This document shows, piece after piece, positions 1,529 to 11,703 of a stretch of DNA of 64,000 nt. Where the stretch lies: the NCBI RefSeq assembly GCF_000283655.1, contig NC_016622.1, positions 1,500,501 to 1,564,500 of the forward strand. The letters run 5' to 3'. The translations under genes and the position numbers were made by a program. Source of the DNA: Azospirillum lipoferum 4B (GTDB taxonomy: Bacteria; Pseudomonadota; Alphaproteobacteria; Azospirillales; Azospirillaceae). The notes below the pieces were generated by a model, which saw nothing but the letters and a program-made list of their open reading frames with translations, had not been told where the DNA came from and ran no database searches. The stretch's first letter is position 1. Every line of letters begins with the position of its first letter.

Positions 1529-2121
1529 CCCGCCCCGACGTCTCCGCCGCCAGCCGGCCGGGCCATCTGCCGGTGATCGTCACCTATCTGCAGATGACCG
1601 CGCCGCCGGCCCACGAGCCGGTGCGCCAACCCAAAGGCAATTTGTCGCTGCAACGGGCGAATCCGCCGACCTGGTCCTTCTACCGCTATCTCTACGACAC
1701 GGTGGGGGAACCCTGGCTGTGGCACGAACGCCGCCGCATGCCGCGCAAGGAGCTGGAGCGCTCGATCCTCGACCCGCTGGTGGAGGTTTGGGTGCTTTAT
1801 GTCGACGGCACGCCCGCCGGCTTCGCGGAGCTGGACCGGCGGACCAGCGAAACCGATCTGTCTTATTTCGGCCTGATCCCCGACTTCATCGGCCACAAGC
1901 TCGGCCCCTGGCTGCTCGACAGCATCATCCGCAAGGCGTGGGAGGGCGGCGCAAAGAAGCTGCTCGTCAACACCTGCAGCTTCGACCATCCGAAGGCCCT
2001 GCCGCTCTACCAGAGCATGGGCTTCGTCCCCATCCGCCACGTCGCCCGCGAGGTGCGCGACCCGCGGCTCGACGGCGTTCTGCCGCGCAGCGCCGGGGAG
2101 CATATTCCGCTGGCGGGGTGA
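1504..2121 (+). CDS. GNAT family N-acetyltransferase
   Basis: A 205-residue protein whose C-terminal two thirds is a GNAT fold: a strand ending in DLSYFGLIPDF, an acetyl-CoA-binding turn (GHKLGPWLLDSII), then LLVNTCSFDHPKALPLYQSMGF, the typical helix and final strand. The N-terminal 50 residues are specific to this subgroup. The substrate is unknown. It overlaps the preceding acetyltransferase gene in another frame, so sseA and the two acetyltransferases form a probable three-gene operon. No ribosome-binding site stands out, consistent with coupling to the upstream gene. Confidence 0.8.
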   Translation: MADQPFSLTRPDVSAASRPGHLPVIVTYLQMTAPPAHEPVRQPKGNLSLQRANPPTWSFYRYLYDTVGEPWLWHERRRMPRKELERSILDPLVEVWVLYVDGTPAGFAELDRRTSETDLSYFGLIPDFIGHKLGPWLLDSIIRKAWEGGAKKLLVNTCSFDHPKALPLYQSMGFVPIRHVAREVRDPRLDGVLPRSAGEHIPLAG

Positions 2122-2176
2122 GGTTGGGGCATCGCCAGCCGACATCCCCCTCCCCCTTGACCACCCCAGCCACCCC

Positions 2177-2271
2177 GCCCCATCTACCGCGGAAGGCCGG
2201 AACCCACGTGTGGGCCGGTGCGTTCCTTTGGGCGAGGCGGAAGCTCCGCCGTGACGAGCGGGAGATGGGGC
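2177..2271. repeat. Structured palindromic element
   Basis: Nine-base perfect outer arms (GCCCCATCT at 2177-2185 and AGATGGGGC at 2263-2271) enclose two internal hairpins: CCCAC-GT-GTGGG near 2203-2214 and GGCGGA-AGC-TCCGCC at 2236-2250. The arrangement resembles REP/BIME-type intergenic elements. It ends one base before the start of the next small gene, so it could also act as that gene's leader structure. Confidence 0.5.
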
Positions 2272-2272
2272 C

Positions 2273-2518
2273 TTGGTGGGCTGGATCATACGGACGCTGG
2301 TGCTGTGCTTCGTCGTCGGCTTCGTGCTGTCGTTTCTGAACATCAACCCGGCCAACATCCTGACCAACAGCTGGCAGACGGTTCAGGATATCGCAGCGCT
2401 GTTGGTCGAAGCCGGCGGCTGGGCCTTGCCCTATATCCTGATCGGTGCGGTGGTGGTGGTGCCGCTCTCGCTGCTCGGGCTGATCCTGCGCTGGAACCGC
2501 TCCCGTCCGCCTTCTTGA
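2273..2518 (+). CDS. Small integral membrane protein (DUF6460-like)
   Basis: An 81-residue protein made almost entirely of two hydrophobic segments (about 5-25 and 50-74) separated by a short polar stretch with the sequence NPANILTNSWQ, and ending in a basic tail. It resembles short conserved alphaproteobacterial membrane proteins that I associate with DUF6460; that assignment is from memory. Function is unknown. The start is either the TTG at 2273 or the adjacent GTG at 2276, downstream of a GGGAGATGGGG purine stretch. The upstream palindromic element abuts the start. Confidence 0.6.
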   Translation: MVGWIIRTLVLCFVVGFVLSFLNINPANILTNSWQTVQDIAALLVEAGGWALPYILIGAVVVVPLSLLGLILRWNRSRPPS

Positions 2519-2537
2519 GAAAATCCTGAGTGCGGAC

Positions 2538-2573
2538 AAAAAAACAGGAGGCACCGGAACCGGAGCCTCCTGT
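2538..2573 (-). terminator. Intrinsic terminator of small RNA copy A
   Basis: Minus-strand hairpin with nine-base arms ACAGGAGGC/GCCTCCTGT and an inner CCGG/CCGG pairing, followed immediately by a run of seven T. Confidence 0.85.
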
Positions 2574-2595
2574 GAAACAGGGAGGGTTAGAGACA
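2538..2595 (-). ncRNA. FNR-box small RNA, copy A (tandem with copy B)
   Basis: Predicted ~58-nt transcript on the minus strand. It begins at the conserved block GTCTCTAACCCTCCCTGT, shared exactly with copies B and C, and ends at an intrinsic terminator: arms ACAGGAGGC and GCCTCCTGT at 2544-2573 followed by seven T on the minus strand (2538-2544). The predicted start (2595) is 41.5 bp from the centre of the FNR-like box at 2630-2643, the class II activation distance. A -10-like TAAACC lies at 2602-2607. The CCCTCCCT core is unpaired in the simple fold and is anti-Shine-Dalgarno in sequence. There is no plausible ORF. Transcript existence and ends are inferred. Confidence 0.62.
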
Positions 2596-2629
2596 GCCAT
2601 AGGTTTACGCCCTCGCCCGGCCGGCCGCG

Positions 2630-2643
2630 TTGATGCATGTCAA
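2630..2643 (-). promoter_or_regulatory. FNR-like box of small RNA copy A
   Basis: TTGACATGCATCAA on the minus strand, one mismatch (C for T at position 5) from the FNR/FixK/Anr consensus TTGAT-N4-ATCAA. Its centre at 2636.5 lies 41.5 bp upstream of the predicted start. Confidence 0.65.
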
Positions 2644-2681
2644 CGGAGCGGCGCTTTTTGGCGGCAGCCCTGGCCGCAAAG

Positions 2682-2715
2682 AAAAACCGGAGACATCCAT
2701 GCGGATGCTCCGGTT
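2682..2715 (-). terminator. Intrinsic terminator of small RNA copy B
   Basis: Minus-strand stem AACCGGAG/CTCCGGTT with an inner CATCC/GGATG helix and a one-base bulge, followed by TTTTT. It probably separates copy B from copy A. Confidence 0.85.
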
Positions 2716-2742
2716 CAGTGATACAGGGAGGGTTAGAGACAA
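2682..2742 (-). ncRNA. FNR-box small RNA, copy B (tandem with copy A)
   Basis: Predicted ~61-nt transcript on the minus strand, starting TTGTCTCTAACCCTCCCTG and ending in a terminator hairpin with arms AACCGGAG and CTCCGGTT and an inner CATCC/GGATG pairing (2685-2715), then five T. The predicted start at 2742 is 41.5 bp from the centre of a perfect FNR box at 2777-2790. A -10-like GATAAG sits at 2750-2755. The 5' segment matches copies A and C base for base over 18 nt, while the terminator stem is unrelated, as expected for sibling regulatory RNAs where only the seed region is conserved. It lies 89 bp downstream of the hisC stop, on the same strand. Confidence 0.68.
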
Positions 2743-2776
2743 GACGGACCTTATCCCGAAACGGATATGCCTTTCG

Positions 2777-2790
2777 TTGATCTGCATCAA
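2777..2790 (-). promoter_or_regulatory. FNR box of small RNA copy B
   Basis: TTGATGCAGATCAA on the minus strand is a perfect TTGAT-N4-ATCAA match, centred at 2783.5, 41.5 bp upstream of the predicted start at 2742. It lies between the hisC stop and the small-RNA start. Confidence 0.75.
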
Positions 2791-2830
2791 AAGCAGCGAA
2801 AATCACCGCAGCCCGATTGCCCCGCATCCC

Positions 2831-3916
2831 TCAACCGAGAATCTCGGCCAGCGCCACGACCAGCGCCTTGTTCTCCTCCTCGCGCCCGACGGTGATGCGC
2901 AGGCAATCGGACAGGCCATAGTCGGTGACCGGCTTCACCAAAATGCCGCGCCGGGCGAGATGGTCGATCACCGCCTGGGTGCCCAGCGACGGGTCGGTCG
3001 GCACGCGGGCCAGCACGAAGTTGCAGACGCTGGGATAGACGCGCAACCCCACCCGCTCCAACTCTCGCGACAGCCAGGGCAGCCACTGCGCATTGTGGGC
3101 GAAGGTCGCCTCCTCATGCTCCGCATCGCTCAGCGCGGCGGCGGCGGTCATTTGGGCGGGCAGCGAGACGTTGAAGGCGCCGCGAATGGCGTTCACCGCC
3201 TCGATCACCGTGGAAGGGCCGTATCCCCAGCCCACCCGCAGGCCGGCCAGTCCATGCATCTTGGAAAAGGTGCGGATCAGCATGACGTTGTCGGAATTTT
3301 CGACGATCTCCGTCCCGTCGCTGTAGTCCGGCATCCGGCAATAATCGGCATAGGCCGAATCCAGCACCAGAAGCGTGTGAGACGGCAGGCCGGCCCGCAG
3401 CCGCTGCACCGCGTCGGCCGGGATATAGGTGCCGGTCGGGTTGTTCGGGTTGGCGAGGAAGCAGATCCGCGTGCGCTCCGTCGCGCGGTCGATCATCGCC
3501 TCCACATCCACGACCATGTCGCGCTCCGCCGCGACGACCGCGGTGGCGCCGGTGGCACGAATCGCCTTGATGAAGCCGCGATAGCCGCGCTCGTGGCACA
3601 GCACCTCGTCACCGGGGCCGGCGAAGGCCTGGGCGACCAGATGGATCAGCTCCTCCGATCCGGCGGTGCAGACGATATGGTCGGCGTCGATGGAATGGCG
3701 ACGCGCAATGGCGTGGCGCAGCGGATCCTGGTCCCAGTCGGGATAGCAGTGGATGCGGGCCGCCGCCTCGCAATAGGCATCGAGGGCAAGCGGGCTGGGT
3801 CCAAGCGGATTGTGGGTCAGGGACAGGTCGATCCACCGGCGGCCGTCGCGGGGCGGGCGAACGGGACGGTACGGCTTGATCTGGCCAACGCTGGGACGGG
3901 GGCTGAGCAGGTCCAT
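2831..3916 (-). CDS. hisC: Histidinol-phosphate aminotransferase
   Basis: A 361-residue class I/II PLP-dependent aminotransferase. It shows the SLTHNPLGPSP substrate loop (about 32-42), the ANPNNPTGTY motif (155-164), D186 and Y189 in LDSAYADY, and the Schiff-base lysine K219 in TFSKMHGLAGLRVGWG. HisC makes L-histidinol phosphate from imidazole-acetol phosphate. Some HisC paralogues in this group act on aromatic amino acids instead, and the motif alone cannot exclude that. The gene stands alone; hisI lies 6 kb away on the other strand, so his genes are scattered. Two small-RNA genes follow on the same strand. Confidence 0.85.
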   Translation of the reverse strand: MDLLSPRPSVGQIKPYRPVRPPRDGRRWIDLSLTHNPLGPSPLALDAYCEAAARIHCYPDWDQDPLRHAIARRHSIDADHIVCTAGSEELIHLVAQAFAGPGDEVLCHERGYRGFIKAIRATGATAVVAAERDMVVDVEAMIDRATERTRICFLANPNNPTGTYIPADAVQRLRAGLPSHTLLVLDSAYADYCRMPDYSDGTEIVENSDNVMLIRTFSKMHGLAGLRVGWGYGPSTVIEAVNAIRGAFNVSLPAQMTAAAALSDAEHEEATFAHNAQWLPWLSRELERVGLRVYPSVCNFVLARVPTDPSLGTQAVIDHLARRGILVKPVTDYGLSDCLRITVGREEENKALVVALAEILG

Positions 3917-10015: not shown

Positions 10016-10450
10016 ATGACGGACACACCGTCTCTTGAATCGGCGCCGTTCGAAGAGGTTCTGGCCGCCATCCGCTTCACCGCTGACGGGCTGGTGCCCG
10101 CCATCGCCCAGGCGGACGGCACCGGCGAGATCCTGATGATGGCCTGGATGAACCGCGATGCGGTGGTCGAGACGCTGTCGACCGGCCGCGTCTGCTACTG
10201 GTCGCGGTCGCGCGGCGGGCTGTGGCGCAAGGGGGAGACCTCGGGTCAGGTGCAGCGGCTGATCGATTTCAGGGTCGACTGCGACGGCGACACCCTGCTG
10301 CTGATCGTGGAGCAGGACGGTGTCGCCTGCCACACCGGACGGCGCAGCTGCTTCTATCGCGCCTGGCGCGACGGGCGGCTGGAGACCATCCAGGAGGTCG
10401 AGACCGATCCGGCCATCCTCTATGGCGGGCATTCGCACAGCCACGGCTGA
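10016..10450 (+). CDS. hisI: Phosphoribosyl-AMP cyclohydrolase
   Basis: A 144-residue monofunctional HisI. It has GEILMMAWMNRDAV (about 38-51), the substrate and zinc region TGRVCYWSRSRGGLWRKGETSG, the metal-binding DCDGD, and the ACHTGRRSCFYR motif with the conserved cysteines. The enzyme opens the purine ring of phosphoribosyl-AMP in step three of histidine synthesis. There is no fused HisE domain. Ribosome-binding site GAGGAG lies ten bases upstream. It is probably co-transcribed with metC. Small-RNA copy C follows directly. Confidence 0.93.
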   Translation: MTDTPSLESAPFEEVLAAIRFTADGLVPAIAQADGTGEILMMAWMNRDAVVETLSTGRVCYWSRSRGGLWRKGETSGQVQRLIDFRVDCDGDTLLLIVEQDGVACHTGRRSCFYRAWRDGRLETIQEVETDPAILYGGHSHSHG

Positions 10451-10504
10451 GGAGGCGGACGGGGACGAGTCGCCACCGACGCGATGACGGTTCGTGAAAG
10501 ATCG

Positions 10505-10518
10505 TTGATCCACATCAA
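10505..10518 (+). promoter_or_regulatory. FNR box of small RNA copy C
   Basis: TTGATCCACATCAA, a perfect TTGAT-N4-ATCAA site, centred at 10511.5 and exactly 41.5 bp upstream of the predicted start at 10553. A good -10 (TATAGA, 10540-10545) lies between them and there is no recognisable -35, the layout of a class II activated promoter. Confidence 0.78.
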
Positions 10519-10552
10519 CGCCGCACCCCCGCCGAAGGGTATAGAAACCCTC

Positions 10553-10616
10553 TTGTCTCTAACCCTCCCTGTATATGACTGCACCGGGCGTTCCGATGAA
10601 CGCCCGGTTATTTTTT
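10553..10616 (+). ncRNA. FNR-box small RNA, copy C
   Basis: Predicted ~64-nt transcript that starts TTGTCTCTAACCCTCCCTG, identical to copy B through the 5' segment, and ends in a perfect ten-base terminator stem ACCGGGCGTT/AACGCCCGGT (10583-10608) with loop CCGATG, then TTTTTT. The distance from FNR box to start, the -10 position and the distance from the seed to the hairpin match copies A and B 7.8 kb away, although the intervening bases differ. That pattern of conservation argues for a selected regulatory RNA and not for a recent duplication. Confidence 0.72.
10583..10616 (+). terminator. Intrinsic terminator of small RNA copy C
   Basis: Ten-base perfect stem ACCGGGCGTT/AACGCCCGGT with a six-base loop followed by TA and six T. 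Confidence 0.88.
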
Positions 10617-10619
10617 GCC

Positions 10620-11019
10620 CGGCCGCCGGCTTCGCAGTCTCGGTCAACGGATGGCGCGTTTGCGCCGCCGAACCTCTTTCGGACGATCCGCTCCGTCACT
10701 GTCTTCCGACCGGGGCCTAGCGCCTTCCTTTGCGCAACATGCCCTTCGGCCCGACAAACGGTGTCCTTTTGCAAGCCGAAGCCTGTCCATATGGGGGAGA
10801 AAACCCGCTTTCCGTCTCAACAGCGACCCACAGCAAGTCACAGATGCATCAAAACAAGAAACATAATGGACAGGTTCTTTAATCAATCTATGAACATCTG
10901 TGTCATTTCATCAAATCCCCTTTGTATTGCCCCTTTATCGCTTTTCGACAACCCCGGACCCATGGTTAACATCTTGTTAATCGTTAACAAAACGTTAACG
11001 GCACTGATGGAGAGACGCC
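10620..11019. other. Intergenic region upstream of the RTX gene
   Basis: About 400 bp without a supported gene. The left half has ordinary high GC; the right half (about 10840-11000) is strikingly AT-rich for this genome and holds two CtrA-type boxes. No coding signal was seen. Confidence 0.6.
10966..10998 (+). promoter_or_regulatory. Two tandem CtrA-type boxes
   Basis: Two perfect TTAA-N7-TTAA sites, at 10966-10980 and 10984-10998, lie 18 bp apart and 21 bp before the RTX start codon. TTAA-N7-TTAA is the consensus of the alphaproteobacterial cell-cycle and motility regulator CtrA. Confidence 0.6.
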
Positions 11020-11703
11020 ATGCGCCAGTTCTGGGGGACTTCGAACAACGACACCATGACCGGCACCGCCTCTGACGACCGTCTCGACGGTCTGGACGGG
11101 GACGACCGTATCAACGGCGCCGGCGGGAACGATCTGCTGTATGGCGAGCGCGGAAACGACTCGCTGATCGGCGGGCTGGGCAACGACAGATTCCACGGCG
11201 GCGACGGCAACGATTGGCTCGGCGATCCCTATGGCGGGAACGAGGCCGGGAATGACTCGATGTGGGGCGATGCCGGCAACGACCAGCTGTTCGGCGGCGA
11301 GGGCAACGACTGGCTGAACGGCGGCACCGGCGACGACATCGTCAAGGGCATGCGGGGCGACGACACCATGATCGGCGGCAGCGGCAACGACATGCTGTAT
11401 GACAGCTACCGTGACGGCGGCGCCGACCTGTTCCAGCCGGGCACCGGCAACGACACCATGGTCAGCTTTGCCGACGGACTGGTGGACCGCTTCCTGATCG
11501 AACAGGCGACCGGCGGCTTCGGCACCGACACCATCAACTACTTCGAGAAGGGCGTCGACCAGATCGAGTTCCATGGCTATGCCGCTTGGGAGATGGCGAT
11601 GACCAGCAACGGCTCGGCGACCACCTTCGCCTTCACCGACGGCTCGTCGCTGACGGTCGACCAGATCGGGCTCAGCTCCGGCCACGACTTCATCTTCACC
11701 TGA
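11020..11703 (+). CDS. RTX / hemolysin-type calcium-binding repeat protein
   Basis: A 227-residue acidic, glycine- and aspartate-rich protein. Residues about 5-130 are a run of RTX nonapeptides (GGxGxDxLx variants such as GGLGNDRFHGGDGNDWLG), which fold into a calcium-bound parallel beta-roll. The C-terminal third, with FEKGVDQIEFHGY and SLTVDQIGLSS, resembles the terminal domain that flanks RTX rolls and serves type I secretion. There is no enzymatic domain and no N-terminal signal peptide, as expected for type I substrates. No type I exporter genes are nearby. Start ATG 11020 has GGAGAG before it. Two CtrA boxes precede it. Confidence 0.85.
   Translation: MRQFWGTSNNDTMTGTASDDRLDGLDGDDRINGAGGNDLLYGERGNDSLIGGLGNDRFHGGDGNDWLGDPYGGNEAGNDSMWGDAGNDQLFGGEGNDWLNGGTGDDIVKGMRGDDTMIGGSGNDMLYDSYRDGGADLFQPGTGNDTMVSFADGLVDRFLIEQATGGFGTDTINYFEKGVDQIEFHGYAAWEMAMTSNGSATTFAFTDGSSLTVDQIGLSSGHDFIFT

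Follow-up and report, generated by a model that had tools for sequence, protein, structure and literature searches.

Genes repressed by the FnrS RNA of enteric bacteria include those for aerobic respiration and oxidative stress (passage of PMC8139620). In the Alphaproteobacteria, a known group of RNAs is represented in Rfam by SorX (RF02784), SorY (RF02651), suhB/MmgR (RF00519) and BjrC1505 (RF02356). CcsR RNAs have hairpins with CCUCCUCCC loops. Azospirillum fixes nitrogen at low oxygen, and must then replace the respiration and peroxide defence suited to high oxygen by a microaerobic set. Small RNAs of A. brasilense Sp245 under nitrogen limitation have been reported (PMC7685610); in a term search of the main text of that paper, FNR, cytochrome, peroxiredoxin and microaerobic were absent. 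Passages of PMC4842269 and PMC7143759 hold no description of BjrC1505. Among literature strings, CCUCCCUGU was found only in papers off-subject by their titles, and three longer strings were absent. Searches of the open-access literature by title and abstract start, a scope that leaves most subscription papers outside, turned up no account of an RNA family like the one presented here.

Three related units in the window

The window, that is the whole stretch of DNA analysed, comprises 64,000 nucleotides of Azospirillum lipoferum 4B (NC_016622.1). The earlier note on this stretch had described two tandem units between the gene of an 81-residue membrane protein and hisC. Both are present, on the minus strand (units A and B, Table 1), and a third sibling that had been missed, unit C, lies about 7.8 kb from them on the opposite strand, behind hisI. 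Each unit is made of a TTGAY-N4-RTCAA box, a -10 element, an identical 18-nt block and a terminator of its own. The 18-mer (GTCTCTAACCCTCCCTGT) has three exact copies in the window; with up to three mismatches, 0.02 copies are expected in the shuffled window, and none of 100 shuffles held at least three. The only two perfect boxes in the window are those of units A and C, the unit B box having one mismatch, and box-like sites with at most two mismatches number 23, compared with 8.5 expected. It was also observed that unit C is adjoined by a protein (11020-11703, plus strand) with GGxGxD-type nonapeptide repeats, identified by eye.

Table 1. Predicted RNA genes of the window, their promoter elements and neighbouring genes
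Feature	Position	Strand	Remarks
FNR-type box, unit A (TTGATGCAGATCAA)	2790-2777	minus	perfect TTGAT-N4-ATCAA
Putative -10-like element, unit A	2748-2755	minus	TA begins 37 nt past box start
Unit A, predicted sRNA of ~63 nt	2740-2678	minus	5' block GUCUCUAACCCUCCCUGU at 2740-2723; R1 match, fold
Terminator stem, unit A	~2716-2684	minus	U-rich tail after
FNR-type box, unit B (TTGACATGCATCAA)	2643-2630	minus	one mismatch
Putative -10-like element, unit B, TAAACC	2602-2607	minus	36 nt past box start
Unit B, predicted sRNA of ~59 nt	2594-2536	minus	block at 2594-2577; R1 match, fold
Terminator stem, unit B	~2573-2544	minus	T tract after
FNR-type box, unit C (TTGATCCACATCAA)	10505-10518	plus	perfect; absent from earlier note
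Putative -10-like element, unit C, TATAGA	10540-10545	plus	
Unit C, predicted sRNA of ~62 nt	10555-10616	plus	block at 10555-10572; R1 match, fold, sub-threshold SorX
Terminator stem, unit C	~10583-10608	plus	T tract after
81-aa membrane protein gene	2273-2518	plus	convergent with units A/B; DUF6460 match below cut-off
Class I/II aminotransferase gene (hisC in earlier note)	2831-3916	minus	3' end facing unit A
hisI	10016-10450	plus	phosphoribosyl-AMP cyclohydrolase domain PF01502; 5' of unit C

Conservation, RNA structure and promoter geometry

The closest genome compared (G001) has 35% of the 31-mers of the window in common with it. An exact 16-mer of the block was present in 25 of 41 relatives, which are all 25 Azospirillum genomes sampled, and its reversed control in 0/41. 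A box followed 30-45 nt further by TAACCCTCC was found in 51 of 82 genomes of the family, in 7 of 13 genera (reversed control, 0/82); the positive genomes are 41 of the 45 in the genus Azospirillum and 10 of the 37 others. The genus members without this pattern are G047, G049, G059 and G061; G047 and G049 carry variant units, and G059 has neither a block at three mismatches or fewer nor a unit detected by pattern searches. Blocks with up to three mismatches were counted in 44 of the 45 genus genomes, a noisy figure because the reversed control also matches in many, and the exact 16-mer and box-TAACCCTCC counts were relied on. Genomes have one to four units, mostly two or three. The largest array found, four tandem units, is at locus L047 of G050.

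A looser pattern (box and CCTCCCTGT) matched 7 of 385 genomes of the class, and its control none. Three of the seven belong to this family and three, similarly laid out, to family f16; the last (G264) resembles a chance match. The f16 loci, outside the Azospirillaceae, combine an FNR box with blocks such as CTGTCTCCAAACCCTCCCTGT (L524, L525 and L526). In a contig-wide pattern scan (80 listed of 119 stretches), the matches listed also included records of Skermanella and of Azospirillaceae or Rhodospirillales bins, and the listed ones from outside the family look like chance. No plasmid copy was found in PLSDB with positions 2500-2830. Matches to GTCTTGAACCCTCCCTGT with two mismatches were discarded as coincidence, the six inspected sitting within same-strand coding starts.

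When 20 loci were compared with the flanks of the window, the order hisI - unit(s) - DUF6460-like gene was seen in nine of them (seven in Azospirillum, one in G095 of genus g29 and one in G093 of genus g28). Among the other 11, units lie beside the DUF6460-like gene (L009, L025) or beside hisI (L011, L014), as in the window, or have the hisI side only (L007); the remaining six, from the family or from f16, have none of these or other neighbours. Gene order indicates that in the window clade the hisI-DUF6460 interval is split by about 7.8 kb, with unit C retained next to hisI and the 'pair' A/B, two thirds of an older array, next to the DUF6460-like gene. The splitting segment encodes the aminotransferase and, by eye, an amino-acid ABC transporter. 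At one site in G008 (L020), a single unit has an A-type promoter and a B-type RNA; this hybrid looks like the result of recombination of the tandem pair at the 18-nt block.

For the analysis of RNA structure, 38 distinct units were aligned (from 45 representatives, six chance matches were removed, and a true unit, L369, was left out). In this alignment the 5' block is nearly invariant and the hairpin variable, which agrees with the earlier description of differing stems around a constant block, and the stems also covary. The consensus stem of the terminator has 8 pairs, 8/8 with changes on both sides. Stem cells changed on both sides numbered 58, versus 19.3 in shuffles, and 88% of stem cells were paired, versus 71% in shuffles, a level of pairing reached in 0/500 shuffles; registers slid by 1-3 columns gave less pairing and less covariation. 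The covariance model R1, which includes all three units, scored unit C at 76, unit B at 62.7 and unit A at 61.6 bits. On 1.2 Mb of G012 it found three units (77.5, 62.7 and 61.7 bits), and the next match, at 22.0 bits, was the antisense of a peroxiredoxin ribosome binding site (RBS). A 28-bit match in G001 is without the block and was rejected as a member. The block is predicted to be open, with a mean unpaired probability of 0.98 in A, 0.98 in B and 0.79 in C, and the predicted fold has a U-rich tail; Hfq binding is putative.

The box centre and the first G of the block are 43.5 bp apart in units A and C and 42.5 bp apart in unit B. The single box-to-block distance of 41.5 bp claimed earlier is thus inexact, and the near-constant distance is the one from box to -10. 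In 93 distinct spacers, box start and block G were 47 (34 spacers), 48 (34), 49 (23), 46 (1) or 51 nt (1) apart, a few variant blocks having been placed by fuzzy match and possibly off by at least 1. TAN[AG] begins 36-37 nt past the box start in 85 of the 93, and in at most 17 at any other position pair tried. The usual centre of a class II FNR site is about -41.5. If the -12 T is set at the conserved -10 position, the box centre falls at about -41.5 and transcription would start at or next to the G of GUCUCU, that is at 2740 and 2594 (±1) in units A and B, instead of the 2742 and 2595 proposed earlier. The units thus have a TTGAT-N4-ATCAA-type box about 41.5 bp 5' of the predicted start, as in a class II FNR-dependent promoter. 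The box and a G two bases beyond it also fit the FnrN/FixK consensus, TTGANCNNGATCAANG, given in a passage of PMC4999443.

If there were no RNA genes here, the boxes would belong to neighbouring genes and the terminators would simply be repeated. A simple sigma-70 scan of 2000-3000 detected no promoter, which is in line with that reading, such scans missing activator-dependent promoters; however, box and terminator enclose no gene start on their strand, what separates them is a block near-invariant in dozens of genomes, and the stem covaries. An absence of RNA genes is very improbable, and the three units are, on comparative evidence, very probably genes of one sRNA family with a class II FNR-type promoter.

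Of 10 genomes searched, nine, each of them bearing the sRNA, have a full-length FNR relative with a CGACPVRSLTVC-type (CGACPVR-type) cysteine cluster. The best FNR-like match in the tenth, G059, is without the cysteines, and this genome is also without the sRNA pattern, a single case in which an assembly gap is possible. The FnrL model had one to five matches per genome at E <= 1e-20, and none of the matches in the 10 genomes reached the model's own cut-off. Such numbers would accommodate binding of the boxes by another CRP/FNR member (FixK, Dnr/NnrR), with nitric oxide or a FixLJ-type cascade as the signal, and FnrN and FixK sites are very similar (passage of PMC4999443). Against this, it is in the sole genus member without the sRNA pattern, admittedly a single case, that a cysteine-intact FNR was not found, and we consider control by another regulator rather unlikely. 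Taken together, conservation, class II geometry, the covarying terminator and the presence of cysteine-type FNR in 9/10 genomes support the earlier reading of the units as sibling low-oxygen sRNAs, and their control by FNR and low oxygen is quite probable.

Predicted targets

Matches to the block with two mismatches were found to be the antisense of the RBS GGAAGGGTTAGAGAC-(g/c)ATG of a Redoxin-family peroxiredoxin. The block had previously been regarded as an anti-Shine-Dalgarno (anti-SD) seed; CCUCCC is predicted to pair in this way, but the best predicted pairing also takes in GUCUCUAACCC and extends to the AUG.

In an unbiased scan by duplex energy, 998 crude genes from 1.2 Mb of the G012 genome were ranked with one start each; the peroxiredoxin came top, ahead of a false start within a repeat, and ctaD was third. 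Energy alone is a weak guide, as 9 of 200 shuffled-flank decoys reached the real top score and 95 the real third. The pairings of the block itself were at or below -24 in 3 genes versus a decoy mean of 4.1, and at or below -20 in 23 versus 31.4.

Energies of -18 or below were obtained for 35 of 41 ctaD RBSs and 37 of 44 peroxiredoxin RBSs, compared with 32 of the 998 background genes and with 5 of 30 RBSs of ctaB, at the same loci as ctaD. The ctaD RBS was read in 41 of the 45 genus genomes (G014, G045, G046 and G057 were left out), and one peroxiredoxin start (L119, -11.1), misplaced by the start rule and having the RBS GGAAGGGTTAGAGAC, was counted as a miss. For coxB, the same energy was reached in 10/12 cases with the best of several starts taken; because the block contains the anti-SD core, any strong SD, such as that of coxB, scores well. 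The ctaD RBS holds GGGUUAGAGAC-AUG or near forms across clades despite differing upstream leaders, and that of ctaB does not. In the window clade it reads AAAGGGTAGAGAC-ATG or close forms, which pair with a bulge; it is GCGAGGGTTAGAGAC-ATG in most of the second clade (G006, G019), AAAGGGTTAGAGAC-ATG in G049 and G061, and AGAGGGTTAGAGAC-ATG in G004. The six of 41 above -18 are those of G043, G056, G011, G050, G053 and G059, the first five of which carry the sRNA. Strong pairing (runs of at least 11) was seen in 16/44 peroxiredoxin and 12/41 ctaD RBSs, mostly in different clades. For ctaD and peroxiredoxin as candidate targets, RBS conservation is stronger evidence than the energies.

An interspersed repeat, GGAGGGTTAGGG[AT]GGGGGCAATG, is present in many Azospirillum genomes (e.g. 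G020, G044, G045). It holds the reverse complement of TAACCCTCC and thereby confounds target searches; GGAGGGTTA-N-ATG, tried as a target pattern, was swamped by it and was not counted. A branched-chain-type ABC binding protein, a candidate that came from the GGAGGGTTA-N-ATG search, was found in 21 of 45 genomes at E <= 1e-100, with the RBS GGAGGGTTAGAG-ATG, GGAGGGTTGAG-ATG or GGAGGGAGAG-ATG and an energy of -19.8 or below in 21/21 (best start). Two further RBS matches belong, by eye, to amino-acid and polyamine binding proteins. With GGGTTAGAGACATG, at most one mismatch being allowed, six genomes gave 23 matches (control, 1). The sRNAs in the opposite orientation make up 8 of them; the remaining 15 lie in front of ORFs of at least 76 aa, including ctaD (4) and peroxiredoxin (2), a count that is no strict test since an SD-like stretch and an ATG are expected at gene starts. 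Negative feedback on fnr was considered and rejected: among 30 loci (33 matches; L482-L492 left out), the start was read in 19, best by energy, and AGAGGTTAGAGAC-ATG was present in G002 (L343) only and absent from the other 18, G013 and G019 having a partial form of it.

Compensatory change was examined in six RBSs paired with the variant units of their own genomes. One case was favourable (peroxiredoxin of G049) and five were not: ctaD of G093 and G049, peroxiredoxin and ctaD of G047, and peroxiredoxin of G048 paired better with the canonical block than with their own units. For a seventh RBS, that of the peroxiredoxin of G061, pairing was examined with just the canonical block. This outcome speaks against tight coevolution of sRNA and targets.

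The sRNAs could be FNR-controlled and the role of the block be another one, such as broad SD competition, AbcR-style control of transporters, or titration of RNA or Hfq. The CCCUCCC of the block pairs with any strong SD, the RBS pairing in all 21 binding-protein orthologs and the two additional binding-protein-like matches speak for another role, and both the poor separation of targets from decoys by energy and the 5/6 failed compensatory tests point the same way. However, conservation of the 5' half of the block, GUCUCUAA, comes close to that of the CCUCCC core, more than simple competition for SDs would call for, and the RBSs of ctaD and peroxiredoxin match this half up to the AUG. Such another role thus appears unlikely, without being far-fetched, and translational repression of ctaD and peroxiredoxin is, in our opinion, somewhat more probable than its absence.

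Proposed mechanism and relation to known RNA families

In the model that we favour, FNR would bind the box at about -41.5 upon a drop in oxygen and, as a class II activator, cause transcription to start at the G of GUCUCU. The product of each gene would be an RNA of about 60 nt, open at its 5' end and carrying a terminator hairpin. Through its 5' sequence, GUCUCUAACCCUCCCUGU, the RNA would pair with the SD and the spacer, as far as the AUG, of a small number of mRNAs and so block ribosome entry, the best-supported candidates being those for ctaD (subunit I of the aa3 cytochrome c oxidase), the Redoxin-family peroxiredoxin and the branched-chain-type ABC binding protein. At low oxygen the outcome would be less aerobic respiration, less peroxide defence and less of some uptake, and additional copies, separately promoted and terminated, would provide a higher dose. 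As a whole, this scheme, in which RNAs of some 60 nt are activated by FNR and pair by their 5' end with the SD region to the AUG of a few mRNAs, is a likely interpretation of the sequence data.

A fuller proposal, to which we give slightly less than an even chance, is that the Azospirillaceae and family f16 have an FnrS of their own: an alphaproteobacterial 'CCUCCCUGU + terminator' module resembling SorX/MmgR, brought under an FNR promoter and tandemly multiplied, whose 5' end is read by RBSs of the form GGGUUAGAG(AC)-AUG, and which lowers aa3 oxidase, a peroxiredoxin and one transport protein when oxygen declines, the microaerobic nitrogen-fixing state included. If true, these RNAs would be a post-transcriptional arm of the low-oxygen switch of Azospirillum and an FnrS counterpart beyond enteric bacteria, with an aa3-oxidase target, and they would give Rfam a well-supported new family.

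Rfam scans of 2000-3500, 2520-2840 and 10440-10760 gave no family at gathering score, FnrS included. Below that level, unit C was aligned end to end with SorX (22.9 bits, E 0.002; gathering 46.6) and with suhB/MmgR (15.4 bits, E 0.87; gathering 41), and unit A matched BjrC1505 (18.2 bits, E 0.29; gathering 50); units A and B had no SorX or suhB entry in the scan. The family had been called unfamiliar, which is correct in that no Rfam threshold is reached, but its 3' half resembles the SorX/MmgR/BjrC1505 group. Two distinctions drawn earlier are borne out: from enteric FnrS, with which there is no Rfam match and whose sequence differs, and from the CcsR type as its motif is generally defined, the block being CCCUCCC, predicted to be mostly unpaired, and without CCUCCUCCC.

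A class-wide search with R1 gave a match at E <= 0.001 in 45 of 385 genomes; scores above 60 bits were confined to three (G001, G047, G096) of the five genomes sampled in the family. R1 finds RNAs of the SorX/MmgR/BjrC1505 group across the class through the CCTCCCTGT + terminator module. About half of 30 loci read from this search have, by eye, a hairpin, then CCTCCCTGTT, then a terminator. When 15 of the R1 loci were scanned at gathering, one was BjrC1505 (L515); L505 had sub-threshold SorX, suhB and SorY scores. An upstream hairpin, CCTCCCTGTT and a terminator were noted by eye at L505, L507-L509 and L513-L522, mostly below Rfam gathering.

These matches raise the question of origin, and an answer compatible with the mechanism favoured above is that the units are Azospirillaceae members of the SorX/SorY - suhB/MmgR - BjrC1505 group which gained a new 5' end and FNR control. 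The end-to-end alignments of unit C, the unit A match, the class-wide R1 matches and loci L515 and L505 all argue for such descent; the scores of the window units are nevertheless far below gathering, the 5' sequence differs, and a short C-rich stretch followed by a terminator can arise by convergence. We regard descent from this group as possible, at somewhat below an even chance. From sequence, either kinship or convergence probably links the 3' module to the known alphaproteobacterial group, and BjrC1505, suhB, SorX, SorY and the window family may be parts of one larger family. What is new relative to the known group, as predicted here, is the GUCUCUAA 5' end together with the FNR promoter.

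The window units share with SorX, suhB and SorY a C-rich stretch followed by a GC-rich terminator, in unit C over the whole SorX and suhB models, but they have another 5' end, an FNR box, and scores below gathering. The alphaproteobacterial BjrC1505 similarly has CCUCCCUGU and then a GC-rich terminator, but its model is 140 nt long with extra hairpins upstream. As generally described, CcsR of Rhodobacter and AbcR of rhizobia resemble the units in their C-rich anti-SD motifs and repeated copies; in contrast, the window block is without CCUCCUCCC, and each unit has its own promoter and terminator. With FnrS, the units have in common an FNR-type box at an activating position, a short length and a terminator, and they are predicted to repress genes of aerobic respiration and oxidative stress, classes given for FnrS in a passage of PMC8139620. 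They differ from it in having another sequence, one to four copies per genome, and a C-rich seed at the 5' end.
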